Source: a virus
Length of the DNA stretch: 28,780 bases
Reading direction: 5' to 3' (one strand)
Virus record (IMG/VR): IMGVR_UViG_3300027508_000035
Coordinates: 1-28,780 of that record
The notes under the pieces are model-generated. The model ran no database searches, had not been told where the DNA came from, and worked only from the letters and a program-made list of their open reading frames with translations. Shown here in pieces: positions 20,102 through 25,456 of the stretch; the first letter of the stretch is position 1, and each line of letters starts with the position of its first letter. The position numbers and the translations under genes are program-made.

Positions 20102-21619
20102 ATGGCAGTTCTACGTCCAGGAGTTTACGTTGAAGAAACGTTAAACCCTGTCGCACCTGTAGTTGGTCCAAACTCAGCATCTGTCGGCGCATTCATTGGC
20201 GCAAACGACCGTGGTCCAATTGGAACACCTACACTAATTACATCTTGGAGCCAGTATTCAACACTGTACGGTACTTGGAACACAAGTACTGGAGCAGGAG
20301 CAGCTGGTAATGATTTACCACTTGCTGTATACATGTTCTTTACAAATGGTGGAAGCCAGTGCTACGTTAACCGCGTTGCTAACGGCGCAACATCAGCAAC
20401 TCGTTCACTATCAGACCGAGCAGTAAGCCCATCAGCAACACTTCAGATTCAAGCTAATAACGCTGGAGCATGGGGTAACAGCATTAACATCAGCATCGCT
20501 AACTCAGCAACAACAGGTCTATTTGATTTGTTCGTATACTACGGTGGCAATACAGATGCAAACCTAGTTGAGCGTCACGTTGACCTTTCAATGACAGCAA
20601 CAAATGCTCGTTATGCAACAGCTATTGTTAACGCAGCTTCTGGCTACGTACGTTTAACTGACCTTAACTCAGCAAACACAGGTACTACTCGTAATCCAGC
20701 TGTTGTAACAAACCAAACTCTATCTACTGGCATCAATGGAAACACTCTAGGTAATACCGATTATGCAACTGGTCTTACAAACTTTGACACAATAAAGCAG
20801 TCTTTAATTATGAACGTTCCTGGAAACTCGACTGTTCCTGTAGTTAATGCGGCTATTGGTTATGCAAACTCTCGTCAAGATGTGTTTGTAGTTATTGATG
20901 GTATCTATGATGAGTCTTCTACACAACTAGCTTTAGCTGCACAGTACACAGCAAGCTCACTTGCCGCTGTTTATTATCCAAACCTTGTTATCTCTGACCC
21001 AACACTTGCTCCTGGTTCTGGCACAGGCCGTACACGTGCAGTTGGTTCTGGCGCAGCAGTTATGGGAGTTATTGCAACAACTGATGCATCACGTGGAGTA
21101 TTCAAGGCCCCAGCTGGTCTTCTTGCTCGCCTATCAGGAGTTGTATCAATTGCAACTCTTACAAATGGTGAACTTGATACTCTTAACTCTGCAGCTGCTC
21201 CAGTAAACGCAATTAAGTTTGTACCTGGTTCAGGCATTGTAATCATGGGTTCACGCACACTCAAGGGTGGATATGTAGACAAGTACGTTCCTGTACGTCG
21301 TACACTTATCTATCTACGTAAGTCTCTTACAGACCTTACAGAGTTTGCAATCTTTGAGCCAAACGATGAAGCCTTGTGGAACCGTATCAACTCTTCAATC
21401 AGTACTTTCCTTACTGACTTCTGGAGCAAGGGCGGACTACGAGGCGCTACCCCACAGGCAGCGTTCTTTGTAAAGGTTGATGCACAAAACAACCCACAAA
21501 GCTCAATTGACAACGGGTACGTAAACATTGAAGTTGGCGTTGCTCTACAGCGTCCAGCTGAATTTATCATTATTAAAATTGGACAGTTTGACGGTGGAGC
21601 CACCGTTACTGTGGCGTAA
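20102..21619 (+). CDS. Tail sheath protein
   Basis: A 505-residue contractile sheath protein. The N-terminus RPGVYVEETLNPVAPVVGP, then SVGAFIGANDRGPIGTPTLITSW and YGTW, matches the start of P2 gpFI/T4 gp18-like sheath proteins. The C-terminal domain with IVIMGSRTLKGG, VPVRRTLIYLRKSLTDLTEFAIFEPND, LWNRINSSISTFLTDFW and a final FIIIKIGQFDG fits the conserved attachment domain that contacts the tube and neighbouring subunits. The middle (about residues 90-230) is an extra Thr/Ala/Asn-rich surface domain. AAAGGAG at 20087-20093 is an ideal ribosome site for ATG 20102. Together with the tube gene downstream it shows that the tail contracts. Confidence 0.92.
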   Translation: MAVLRPGVYVEETLNPVAPVVGPNSASVGAFIGANDRGPIGTPTLITSWSQYSTLYGTWNTSTGAGAAGNDLPLAVYMFFTNGGSQCYVNRVANGATSATRSLSDRAVSPSATLQIQANNAGAWGNSINISIANSATTGLFDLFVYYGGNTDANLVERHVDLSMTATNARYATAIVNAASGYVRLTDLNSANTGTTRNPAVVTNQTLSTGINGNTLGNTDYATGLTNFDTIKQSLIMNVPGNSTVPVVNAAIGYANSRQDVFVVIDGIYDESSTQLALAAQYTASSLAAVYYPNLVISDPTLAPGSGTGRTRAVGSGAAVMGVIATTDASRGVFKAPAGLLARLSGVVSIATLTNGELDTLNSAAAPVNAIKFVPGSGIVIMGSRTLKGGYVDKYVPVRRTLIYLRKSLTDLTEFAIFEPNDEALWNRINSSISTFLTDFWSKGGLRGATPQAAFFVKVDAQNNPQSSIDNGYVNIEVGVALQRPAEFIIIKIGQFDGGATVTVA

Positions 21620-21633
21620 AGGAGACCCAATAA

Positions 21634-22242
21634 ATGACAAGCAGCATAATCAATCGCCACTCAACACTGGCAACAGACCCGTTACGCTCGTTTCGGTTCT
21701 TCGCTAAGTTTGAGGTAGCAAAAGACGGTAAAGTCTTTGATACAAAAATCACCACATGGTCTGGCGGATTTAGCAGTATCAGTGGGTTGAGTATCAATAC
21801 TCAAGCCATTCAGTACCGTGAAGGTGGTTACAACACCACAGTACACCAGGTACCTGGTATGACTACCTTTACACCAATCACTATGCAACGTGGAGTATTG
21901 GCTGGTAATGACCAGGCAATCACATGGATGCGTGGTCTATTTGCAGCAGCATCTGGAGAAGGTATTGCTGTAAAGGGCGGCGCAGCAGGAGCTGCTGAAA
22001 GCTTCCGTGTTAACATCAAAGTGTTTGTAGCTGACCATCCAAACTCTGGGCCAACAGAGGCTCAGAAGTACAAGATGGGCTTCAAGATTCACAACGCATG
22101 GATTACTGCGCTAAACTATACAGACCTTAACGCAGCAGACGGCGCAATCTTGTTTGAGTCAATGACTCTAGTACATGAAGGCCTATCAGTCTTCTTTACT
22201 AAAGATGGCACTGAAGAAGACGCAGCAGGAAAAATTTCTTAA
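21634..22242 (+). CDS. Tail tube protein, T4 gp19-like
   Basis: A 202-residue inner-tube protein directly after the sheath gene, with AAAGGAG before the ATG. DPLRSFRFFAKFEV near the N-terminus (about residues 12-30), then FSSISGLS, QYREGGYNTTVHQVPGMTTF and ITMQRGVLAGNDQAI (about 50-90) are the strongly conserved strands of the T4 gp19/Afp1-type tube family. A final strand with HNAWITALNYTDLNA and MTLVHEGLSVFF completes the double beta-sheet fold. Subunits form hexameric rings through which DNA passes. A Gly/Ala-rich insert at about 109-125 is likely a surface loop. Confidence 0.9.
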   Translation: MTSSIINRHSTLATDPLRSFRFFAKFEVAKDGKVFDTKITTWSGGFSSISGLSINTQAIQYREGGYNTTVHQVPGMTTFTPITMQRGVLAGNDQAITWMRGLFAAASGEGIAVKGGAAGAAESFRVNIKVFVADHPNSGPTEAQKYKMGFKIHNAWITALNYTDLNAADGAILFESMTLVHEGLSVFFTKDGTEEDAAGKIS

Positions 22243-22267: not shown

Positions 22268-23062
22268 GTGACTGATATTATTACAGACGCAGAACTAATA
22301 CAGAAATTTGCAGCAAAGGCTATGGAGGAGCCCGCACAAGTCATTAAGACGCGGGCCCCTTCAGAGTCTTCTGTTAAGTTGCCAGGTGGTTTCATTGAGC
22401 CAAATGGTGAAGTATCCAACACAGTTGAGGTACGAGAACTTAACGGAGCTGACGAGGAAGCTGTAGCAAAAGCAGGTACCTCAGGTAAAGCTCTCAATGT
22501 ACTTTTGCAAAGAGGCCTTGTAAAGATTGGCTCTAGGAACGCCGAGAAGGAAGACCTAGACTCTATCTTAGCTGGCGACCGAGACACCATCCTTCTAGCA
22601 ATTAGAAGAGTGACTTTCGGGGATGACATTAACCTTACCGCACGTTGTCGTGACTGCGGAGACTCTCAAGAGGTTTCTGTGTCTTTAGGCTCTGATGTTC
22701 CAGAAGTGGAACTAAAAGACCCAAAGGAAGATAGAACTTTTGAAATAGAAACAAAGAAGGGTAAGGCTGTAGTAGCCCTACCTAACGGTGTGACTCAAAG
22801 AAAGCTCATGGAGAACTTTGAAAGAACACCTGCTGAAGTAAACACTATTTTACTAGCTGGTTGCTTAGTATCACTAGACGGAGAACCATCTGAAGGTGCT
22901 ATAACTGCTTTATCTTTAGGTATGGCAGATAGAACCAAGCTTGTTGATGAAATCATCAAGCGTAACCCAGGTCCACGCCTTGGGGAGGTGACCAAGGCTT
23001 GTAAGGCATGTGGTGAGTTAATGGCTCTTCCGCTGTCCTTGCTTGACTTGTTTCGCATTTAG
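22268..23062 (+). CDS. Tail/baseplate assembly chaperone with zinc ligands, T4 gp26-like
   Basis: A 264-residue protein starting at GTG 22268, with TTAGGAG upstream. The core RDTILLAIRRVTFGDDINLTARC (about residues 106-127) matches the T4 baseplate-type (gp26/gp51-related) family I know from T4-like phages. Two CxxC pairs, C127-x2-C130 and C245-x2-C248, probably form one zinc site. The C-terminal helix ends LLDLFRI. It sits between tube and tape-measure genes, the standard place of tail-assembly chaperones (like lambda G/GT). In that position a frameshift product is common, and here a +1 frame opens across its end (next entry). Role: chaperone for tape measure or hub assembly, inferred. Confidence 0.7.
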   Translation: MTDIITDAELIQKFAAKAMEEPAQVIKTRAPSESSVKLPGGFIEPNGEVSNTVEVRELNGADEEAVAKAGTSGKALNVLLQRGLVKIGSRNAEKEDLDSILAGDRDTILLAIRRVTFGDDINLTARCRDCGDSQEVSVSLGSDVPEVELKDPKEDRTFEIETKKGKAVVALPNGVTQRKLMENFERTPAEVNTILLAGCLVSLDGEPSEGAITALSLGMADRTKLVDEIIKRNPGPRLGEVTKACKACGELMALPLSLLDLFRI

Positions 23063-23201
23063 TGAAACAGATTACGAAAGCCTGTTAGACCAGTACGAAA
23101 TTCTTACAAGAACTTTTGCTGGTTGGTCACTATCAGATATAAGAAGCCTCTCACCCAGAGAGCGTCTTAATTGGTTAGAGCGTTCTAGAAGGACTAGATA
23201 A
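23043..23201 (+). CDS. Overlapping +1 frame ORF, candidate frameshift extension of the chaperone
   Basis: A frame +1 to the chaperone is open from 23022 to the stop at 23199-23201, and its stop overlaps the tape-measure ATG as TAATG. The sequence after the overlap looks like a real protein: SETDYESLLDQYEILTRTFA, then WSLSDIRSLSPRERLNWLER, a Y...W...L-S-x-x-E-R...W pattern resembling the T-part of tail-assembly chaperones. The only usual start codon is TTG 23043, with no ribosome site. A +1 slip at TTT-C (23051-23054), where the same tRNA-Phe can re-pair, would instead fuse 48 residues onto the chaperone to give about 310 residues. Either way this sequence is probably translated. Confidence 0.65.
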   Translation: MTCFAFSETDYESLLDQYEILTRTFAGWSLSDIRSLSPRERLNWLERSRRTR

Positions 23202-25456
23202 TGTTAAATATGCCTAGCAGTTCCAGTAGTGGAAATGCTGCAAATAATATGCAGCGGTTTGAACAATCAAGCCGTGGTGCTCACTCTACCCTTTTACAAA
23301 TGGCTAGCACCATTGAGTACAGAATCAACAGCTCACTTAACGCTGCTGAAACAAAAATCACCCGCATGGGTGCAAAATTTAAAAATGCCTTTAGCGGTAT
23401 TGGTGGCCCAGGTGGCGCCAATACTGTTATGGCTGGTCCTACTTTCTCTACTCCACAAGCAGGTGGACCAGGCGGCCCCGCTGGCCCAGGTGGCCCAGGT
23501 GGTACAGGTCCTGCTGCTGCAGGTGCCCCTCAAGGTGGCGGAAATACAAATGTCTTCAGACAACCATCACCTGCGCAAATAGCTGCAGCTGGTGTCACTG
23601 CCGCTGCAATGGCTATGCCAGGAACAGACGATGCATTTAAAGCACAGCTATATACATCACGCGCTGCTATCTCTTTAGGTGGCGGAGGTCGAGTTCAAGC
23701 AGGTATGCCAGGTGTACTTGGTGGCCTCTCTGACATGAGCGGCAAGAACGGTGCTTACGACCAAACACGAGACTTCTTAAACAAAATAGCAAAAGCTGGC
23801 TTGATGAAAGACCCTCTTGATAATATGCGAATGATGGCTACCTTTGCACAAGGCGGTATCTATGGCGGTAATCAACAGAACATGCAACAAGTAGCTATGG
23901 GTTCTGCAGTTTTATCTAACATGACCCCTGGTATGGGTGGAGAAGGTGCTGCACAAGCAGTGGGCGCAATGAACCGCGGTAGAAGCGTTAACATGTTAAG
24001 AGCTGTAGGCATTAGAGTTCGTGATGAAAACGGAATGCCCCGTGACCCAAGAGCAATTATTGATGACTTGTGGAACAAACTTGAAAGTCAAAAGAGACGC
24101 ACTGGTGGGTCTGGTTCTACTCTTAATGATATTAAACTTTCTTTATTACCTGGTAACGCTATTGCTACCATGCTTGACAACCTTTTTGGTAATGACCCGT
24201 ACCTAAGAAAAATGATTGAAGACGGACTTCTACTTAAGGCGTCTACAGGCGGAGCACAGTTTGCTGGTATGAGCGGCGATAGGATGAAGAAACTATCCCA
24301 AGACGCAGGTCTTTCAACCTTTGCTGCAAATATGCAGGGACAAAGAACAGCTCAAGCATCAGAGTTTATCTCTACAACAGCCCCAGCTATTGCTGACGCT
24401 AAAGGTAGAGCAGACCAACTTATGTCTTATGTAAGTGGCTTCTTTACTGAAATGGATAAGTTTACTGGTCTTATATCTGCTCTTGGCGCAACGAAAGGTT
24501 TCTTTGAAACACTAGGTAGCGGCGGTAATGGAGCACTTAGTGCTCTTACTGGTTTCTTAGTTGGTAACCCTTTATCAAGGGGAATTGCGGGATTGTTTAA
24601 AGCTGAGGGCGGAGACGTAGATGAAAAGAGCCCTTACATTGTTGGAGAGCGCGGACCAGAACTATTTGTACCTAAAGAAGATGGATACATTGTTCCTAAT
24701 CACGATTTAAAGAACTACCCATTCCGCGGTGACGGTGGTTGGGTGTTTGGTAAGGATACAAAACTAAGTGATAAATCTTCAAACGAAGACTTTGCTAAAG
24801 CATTTTTAAAGAAAATTGGGGCTCCTCAAAGCCAAGACTCTATTGATGCTTTAAAGATATGGCAGAACCATGAGGGTGGTCACTTTAAAAACTCTGCTAA
24901 GTACAACCCACTTAATACGACTTTAGGTGGCAAGTACGGTTCAGAGTCTATGAACCACGTAGGCGTAAAGGTTTATAAGAGCTGGGAAGATGGGCTTAAT
25001 GCAACTATCGATACCCTTACTGGTAAGAGCGCAGACAAGCGCGGATATACAGACATTATTGAAGCGTTAAAAGCGGGTAAGAGTAAAGAAGATATTCTTG
25101 CTGCTATTAATAGTTCTGCTTGGGTTACAGGTAAAGTTGGTGGAAGTCCATATAATTTTGACGGCAAGACAACCCCAACAACTAACTCTGGTTGGTCTGG
25201 GATGCTTCCTGGCTCTAATAAAGATGGAGCTAGTGGAGTTTCTCTTGAAGACTACATCAATAAACAAACGTTAAAAAGTTTTGCTTCTGCAACCAAAGCT
25301 CAGTCTTTTGCTGAACCAGCCTCTTCTGCTAATACGTACAACATGGGTGGAGTAACTATTAAAATTGAAGGTGGCGGAAACCCAGGTGCAACAGCAGAAG
25401 CTCTTAAGCAGCTTCTATCTAGCCAAAACTTTAGCAAGCAACTAGGAGGACAGTAA
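23201..25456 (+). CDS. Tape measure protein with peptidoglycan-hydrolase-like domain
   Basis: A 751-residue tail-length ruler, also a DNA-ejection protein. The N-terminal part is helical. A Gly/Pro-rich linker lies at about residues 66-117, then helices continue to about 465. At about 470-495 is GGDVDEKSPYIVGERGPELFVP followed by IVPN, a signature of tape-measure C-termini. Residues about 530-655 look like a lysozyme/glucosaminidase-type domain: ALKIWQNHEGGHF (His557, Glu558), NPLNTT, a VKVYKSWEDGL strand-helix, YTDIIEALKAGKS and SSAWVTG, a pattern shared with phage tail lysins. It would cut peptidoglycan during DNA delivery. It is short for a contractile phage. ATG 23201 overlaps the chaperone extension; it ends overlapping the next ATG. 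Confidence 0.82.
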   Translation: MLNMPSSSSSGNAANNMQRFEQSSRGAHSTLLQMASTIEYRINSSLNAAETKITRMGAKFKNAFSGIGGPGGANTVMAGPTFSTPQAGGPGGPAGPGGPGGTGPAAAGAPQGGGNTNVFRQPSPAQIAAAGVTAAAMAMPGTDDAFKAQLYTSRAAISLGGGGRVQAGMPGVLGGLSDMSGKNGAYDQTRDFLNKIAKAGLMKDPLDNMRMMATFAQGGIYGGNQQNMQQVAMGSAVLSNMTPGMGGEGAAQAVGAMNRGRSVNMLRAVGIRVRDENGMPRDPRAIIDDLWNKLESQKRRTGGSGSTLNDIKLSLLPGNAIATMLDNLFGNDPYLRKMIEDGLLLKASTGGAQFAGMSGDRMKKLSQDAGLSTFAANMQGQRTAQASEFISTTAPAIADAKGRADQLMSYVSGFFTEMDKFTGLISALGATKGFFETLGSGGNGALSALTGFLVGNPLSRGIAGLFKAEGGDVDEKSPYIVGERGPELFVPKEDGYIVPNHDLKNYPFRGDGGWVFGKDTKLSDKSSNEDFAKAFLKKIGAPQSQDSIDALKIWQNHEGGHFKNSAKYNPLNTTLGGKYGSESMNHVGVKVYKSWEDGLNATIDTLTGKSADKRGYTDIIEALKAGKSKEDILAAINSSAWVTGKVGGSPYNFDGKTTPTTNSGWSGMLPGSNKDGASGVSLEDYINKQTLKSFASATKAQSFAEPASSANTYNMGGVTIKIEGGGNPGATAEALKQLLSSQNFSKQLGGQ

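Follow-up and report, generated by a model that had tools for sequence, protein, structure and literature searches.

A predicted +1 programmed frameshift in a phage tail assembly chaperone gene of the T4 gp26/gp51 family

Locus and reading frames

The locus described here raises a direct question: does the open stretch between the tail assembly chaperone and the tape measure encode a small protein of its own, or the end of a longer chaperone reached by programmed frameshifting? The window, meaning the whole stretch of DNA analysed, is a 28.8-kb virus record of 45% GC. On its forward strand lie a tail sheath gene (20102-21619; phrog_23, E 1e-46; PF17482), a tail tube gene of the T4 gp19 type (21634-22242; PF06841, E 3e-23), the gene for the chaperone (22268-23062; PF12322, phrog_150), which runs from a GTG at 22268 to a TAG and specifies 264 residues, the extension, and a tape-measure gene (23201-25456; phrog_10574, E 9e-7).

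From 23022 on, the frame +1 to the chaperone is free of stops until a TAA at 23199-23201, which overlaps the tape-measure ATG at 23201. The chaperone itself closes with TTG TTT CGC ATT TAG (23048-23062), of which TTG_TTT_CGC (23048-23056) is the putative shift site and TAG (23060-23062) a stop whose position is kept in nearly all relatives. An earlier note on this DNA had placed the chaperone, the +1 frame and the overlap between TAA and tape measure at these positions, and all of its coordinates proved correct on re-reading the sequence. Beyond the shift site the +1 frame specifies a domain of 48 residues plus stop (23055-23201), the counterpart of the T4 gp51 C-terminus and of P2 gpE'. If TTTC is read as one Phe step, the computed translation is a single protein of 310 residues, as the note had estimated.

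Comparison with homologous sequences confirms that this overlap frame (23022-23201) encodes protein and lacks a good start. It also makes it very probable that the chaperone gene yields two products, the longer one through a +1 slip at UUU_C.

Conservation of the slip site and extension

Two scans of viral contigs provided 104 distinct junctions, whose chaperones are 47-100% identical to that of the window and from which a divergent set of 49 representatives (<85% identity) was taken. An in-frame TTT-C near the stop, followed by an extension in the +1 frame, is present in 104/104, a count that is strong but non-independent, as the homologues share ancestry and quoted probabilities overstate independence. 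The TTT-C usually lies nine bases ahead of the stop (twelve in one relative, L064), and the commonest form of the junction in the window's family is TTG TTT CGN NTN TAR. The earlier note had proposed TTT-C as a +1 slip site, to be checked by aligning it and the overlap across homologues. That alignment was run, and both are kept together wherever the extension is in the +1 frame of the window's family.

The codons that flank the slip codon are constrained at the synonymous level, as measured against the codon usage of the chaperone genes themselves. The E-site codon is TTG in 45/49 representatives, and where the codon ahead of TTT encodes Leu it is TTG in 45 of 48 cases, compared with a background of 14% (z 23). 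An Arg codon after TTT is always CGN (48/48) and never AGR, which accounts for 36% of background Arg usage; a few relatives have CAA or CAG in the A site instead of CGN.

Within the extension, differences at the three codon positions of the +1 frame amount to 0.34, 0.17 and 0.53, and pN/pS is about 0.32. Its conservation in every one of the 104 junctions goes beyond chance. Its substitutions, read from these alignments, are those of a sequence that evolves as a protein, which bears out its earlier description as protein-like.

No conserved RNA structure was found 3' of the slip site, where the consensus fold of the homologues (alifold) has a z of about 0, and the efficiency of the shift may therefore be low. 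A mini-hairpin spanning slip and stop, spotted by eye in several relatives, did no better than control offsets.

Wider relatives

The +1 arrangement recurs well outside the window's family. For example, the Streptomyces phages BRock and LuckySocke and ten more distinct junctions all read CTR TTT CGN/CAG (12/12). Their +1 extension is open only from 26 bases ahead of the stop, and it is annotated as a small ORF beginning at an internal TTG. The junction is TTC TTT CGT in Streptococcus phage GXN1, TTT TTT CAC in Bacillus phage SP-15, TTT TTT AGT in Listeria phage LIS04 and TTT CTA in the huge phage LR756508.

Bacterial loci of 61-68% GC, from Streptomyces, Saccharothrix, Nonomuraea and MAGs, carry TTT-C and a +1 extension in 9/9 cases, and CTN occurs among their A-site codons. 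Elsewhere in these nine chaperones Phe is encoded by TTC 39 times and by TTT 3 times; as all nine have TTT at the shift site, codon preference is ruled out as the reason for it. The Streptomyces, Saccharothrix and Nonomuraea loci (L346-L352) are tail clusters, of a prophage or a contractile injection system, with the TTT-C +1 arrangement.

A second branch places the same domain in the other frame. Cyanophage annotations list it as a gene of its own, 'gp51', although it sits in the -1 frame and follows NNT TTT TTC. The heptamer T_TTT_TTC is present in 64/64 cyanophage representatives (<80% identity), 16 of which are without any start codon up to +44. A Glu codon 14 nt upstream is GAG in 46/63 cases against 395/1339 gene-wide (p 5e-12), a choice that creates an SD-like GAGGG. 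That spacing is close to the one at which the dnaX stimulator stands. Judged from these sequence features, the end of cyanophage gp26 is a candidate -1 programmed frameshift. Many cyanophages have an ATG at +5, shortly past the stop, and for this reason a separate start is possible case by case in individual sequences of the branch.

Other members of the -1 branch vary in the same respect. Synechococcus phages ACG-2014b and ACG-2014j and Desulfovibrio phage 7757 have no usable start for the extension; KVP40 and Atu_ph07 have T_TTT_TTC too, together with possible starts. The extension has an independent start in Vibrio phages (TAATG) and in the huge phage LR756511. Scanning with the protein of the Desulfovibrio phage turned up no relatives.

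The candidate cyanophage -1 loci are L148, L149, L253-L256, L262 and L265-L344. Lysobacter relatives (L354-L356) read TTT TTT TTG, carry the extension (MSRLYEEVHIIAMRYHW...) in the -1 frame and have an ATG at +8, an arrangement that could be a -1 slip or a separate gene. In Vibrio phages D531 and 207E48.1 and Aeromonas phage phiA8-29 (L258, L259 and L260) a -1 extension stands behind CTT TTC or CTT TTT, and phiA8-29 has no start ahead of the extension domain.

Frameshift or separate start

In the window, the sole ATG, GTG or TTG near the head of the extension frame is the TTG at 23043, and the bases that precede it, CTTCCGCTGTCCTTGC, hold no Shine-Dalgarno sequence. The view that the +1 frame lacks a good start, put forward on just these grounds, extends to the relatives. 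Up to +20 in the extension frame, 0/49 divergent representatives have an ATG and 25/49 have no ATG, GTG or TTG at all; the other 24 carry some TTG or GTG as a possible start, 8 with an SD-like core. Homologues in which the extension has an ATG of its own had been named beforehand as evidence against frameshifting; such an ATG is absent in the window's family but present in distant branches. Taken together, the alignments support programmed +1 frameshifting at TTT-C over a non-canonical start.

Three other routes to the extension can be weighed against this. The extension could be a separate small gene, translated without a frameshift from TTG 23043 or some other weak start through re-initiation or coupling. 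That TTG exists in the window, and the same domain has its own ATG in the Vibrio phages, LR756511 and many cyanophages, but the representatives of the window's family that lack an ATG (all 49) or any start codon (25) speak against it. It would also leave the invariant TTT-C, the synonymous preference for TTG and CGN and the use of TTT in TTC-using genomes unaccounted for, and we regard it as very unlikely. Still more improbable, to the point of being negligible, is that transcriptional slippage or a sequencing error made or mimicked the frame change: slippage of the polymerase is documented and accounts for some frame changes, but the T run at this site is three long, too short for efficient slippage, while an error would have to be common to 104 distinct junctions and to cultured phages from several laboratories.

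The +1 frame might, lastly, be entered by a -2 slip, as happens in phage Mu (PMC3498833), and -2 re-pairing would be possible on the TTT TTT of the relatives SP-15 and LIS04. At TTG_TTT_C, however, such a slip leaves tRNA-Phe on UGU, mismatched at the middle base, while a +1 move brings it onto the cognate UUC, and a UUU_C site has been demonstrated to act as +1 in PA-X (PMC3498833). A -2 slip is accordingly rated as extremely unlikely, and a +1 slip at UUU_C stays the preferred route.

A conserved block upstream of the slip site

Among the last hundred codons of the chaperone gene, synonymous conservation peaks further upstream, in a block at 22961-23008 (codons -30 to -15; codon z-scores up to 31) that the earlier note does not mention. 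Its core is GGGGAGGTGA (22982-22991), and just ahead of the core the consensus fold (alifold) has a small conserved hairpin, CCCAGG..CCTTGGG (22966-22984). The block includes GGAGGTGA, a perfect Shine-Dalgarno-like sequence whose distance ahead of the slip codon is constant: GGAGGTG stands exactly 67 nt 5' of TTT in 103/104 homologues. The GGAGGTG block is absent in the Streptomyces phages.

At 67 nt upstream, the block stands too far off to influence the slipping ribosome in the manner of prfB or dnaX elements. A role as the start signal for another ORF was rejected since downstream ATG and GTG codons in other frames soon meet stops, and a genome-wide repeat was rejected since the block has a single copy in the window. 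A CCACGCC/AGGC-AT-GYGG stem around the block, proposed by eye, was also set aside: T/C alternation at TGY breaks a pair in about half of the sequences, and the consensus fold does not choose this stem.

Chaperone family, fold and the T4 paralogues

The window chaperone scores 29.4 bits against PF12322 (T4_baseplate), for which the Pfam gathering cut-off is 24.5; T4 gp26 and gp51 score 216 and 178 bits. Alignment with hhalign to single T4 gp26 and gp51 sequences is weak (prob 26 and 1.5), and it is therefore the Pfam profile, together with the fold, that places the protein in the family. AF2 models were made of the 0-frame part of the window chaperone alone (pLDDT 86) and of cyanophage gp26 (pLDDT 86.6), and were searched separately. 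In both searches 2ob9, the tail assembly chaperone of HK97, comes first among solved structures (Z 6.9 and 7.9), the next best are 3fgx, yqbN 3klu and 5ir0, and unrelated proteins fall well below. Each score is modest (Foldseek E to 2ob9 of 0.3-0.8, Z <8), and it is the agreement of the two independent models that argues for a chaperone-like fold.

The window chaperone has two CxxC pairs (127/130 and 245/248). In its model (22373-23017) two similar-looking halves can be seen, each closed by a CxxC pair. The chaperone-like match falls in different halves of the window and cyanophage proteins, which hints at an internal duplication.

The extension has relatives of its own. Its profile aligns with the part of P2 gpE' that is reached by frameshifting (hhalign prob 77, E 2e-5), and PF06528 is detected in 18/33 extension members (best E 2e-4), with the window's own extension reaching only 12.8 bits. 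Against the profile of the cyanophage/T4 gp51 C-terminus (alignment A5) it gives prob 83.5 and E 8e-6. A PDB sequence search with either profile returned no match, and an NCBIfam search nothing meaningful.

T4 itself may be understood in these terms. Its genes 26 and 51 (L085:7803-9229) are paralogues, both belonging to PF12322. While gp26 is a short PF12322 protein, the match of gp51 stops at residue 201 of 249 and is followed by an additional C-terminal tail of about 48 residues, which aligns with the cyanophage extension (A5); in KVP40, annotators had likened a small ORF to the gp51 C-terminus. The simplest reading of these sequences is that T4 encodes the short (gp26) and long (gp51) forms as two genes, and it probably replaced frameshifting by gene duplication. 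T4 has been named an exception to the rule of tail-chaperone frameshifting and G/GT (PMC5009743).

The slip site could be real and the gene nevertheless a part of the baseplate hub, as annotated, rather than a tail assembly chaperone. Databases and the T4 literature do assign gp26 and gp51 to the baseplate hub or to its assembly (PMC3004832). Against this stand the match of both predicted folds to HK97 and other tail chaperones, and the position of the gene between those for tube and tape measure, along with a second domain that resembles P2 gpE'. T4 gp51, moreover, is essential yet absent from the particle; a T4 review gives its function as unknown and lists it with gp26 among the hub assembly chaperones (PMC3004832). 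A hub part is thus unlikely, and a tail assembly chaperone remains the favoured identity.

Proposed mechanism

Comparison shows a conserved slip site, an extension that is coding but lacks starts, membership of the T4 gp26/gp51 family and a predicted fold resembling that of chaperones; the slip, its efficiency and a division of labour between the two forms are inferred. Most ribosomes would read CGC ATT and stop at TAG 23060, producing the 264-aa short form. With tRNA-Phe in the P site on UUU (23051-23053), TTG in the E site and CGC awaited in the A site, the tRNA may slip one base forward to UUC (23052-23054), a better match for its anticodon. Translation in the +1 frame would then add the 48-residue C-terminal domain, for a total of 310 aa, and the predicted transframe peptide is ...LLDLFAFSETDYESLLDQYEILTR, with LLDLFAF at the junction. 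By analogy with lambda gpG/gpGT, for which the roles of the short and long forms are described (PMC5009743), the short form would be expected to coat the tape-measure protein, with recruitment of the tube protein falling to the added domain.

Comparison with known systems and significance

The window's chaperone gene resembles lambda gpG/gpGT and P2 gpE/gpE+E' in lying between tube and tape measure and in having a short form and a predicted frameshifted long one. Its extension is related to P2 gpE', and the predicted fold of its chaperone is similar to that of the HK97 counterpart. It differs in that lambda and P2 shift by -1 on a heptamer whereas the window's gene would shift by +1 on UUU_C, and in that its first part is a larger PF12322 protein with two CxxC pairs. 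With T4 gp26/gp51 it has a Pfam family in common, and the gp51 tail belongs to the profile that matches the window extension; T4, in contrast, has two separate paralogous genes, with the long form read in frame and no frameshift. Cyanophage gp26 and its 'gp51' ORF would likewise form a two-part product ahead of the next large tail gene, but the second part is in the -1 frame behind T_TTT_TTC, with the SD-like GAGGG 14 nt upstream.

The slip site itself matches +1 signals of eukaryotic viruses. The UUU_CGU of influenza PA-X was proved to be +1 by peptide sequencing, and the same work predicted a UUU_C class of sites with restricted E-site and A-site codons (PMC3498833); plant amalgaviruses use a UUU_CGN +1 signal (PMC5052127). 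PA-X (UCC_UUU_CGU) and the amalgaviruses (UUU_CGN) are like the window in having UUU_C at the P site, CGN in the A site and a constrained E-site codon. They differ in being RNA viruses translated by eukaryotic ribosomes, whereas the window belongs to a DNA phage that uses bacterial ones. Among tail genes, +1 had previously been suspected in one haloarchaeal case: the frameshift in a tail gene of myovirus HSTV-2 is called very likely +1, as cited in PMC5009743, which makes it like the predicted shift in the window, a +1 shift in a myovirus tail chaperone, with a site and family that are not comparable here.

The T4 gp26/gp51 family is probably the contractile-tail equivalent of lambda G/GT. Its two forms would be obtained in four interchangeable ways: by +1 slipping at UUU_CGN (the window's family, the Streptomyces phages and the high-GC bacterial loci), by -1 slipping at T_TTT_TTC (cyanophages and their relatives), by a separate start, or by paralogues in T4. 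T4 would then be no exception to the rule, and UUU_CGN would work on both bacterial and eukaryotic ribosomes. A literature search that covered few of the subscription journals found no report of frameshifting in the gp26/gp51 family or in cyanophage gp51.

This matters in several ways. T4 is the textbook contractile phage, and the proposal of gp26 as the short and gp51 as the long chaperone form is testable in a laboratory phage. A UUU_CGN signal known from eukaryotic RNA viruses and now indicated in bacteria would point to something inherent in the ribosome and not peculiar to a single lineage. Corrections would also be due in many deposited genomes: what is called 'gp51' in cyanophages would be the last part of a frameshifted protein, and the annotations of BRock, LuckySocke, SP-15, LIS04 and ACG-2014b/j either omit the extension or begin it at an unsupported codon.
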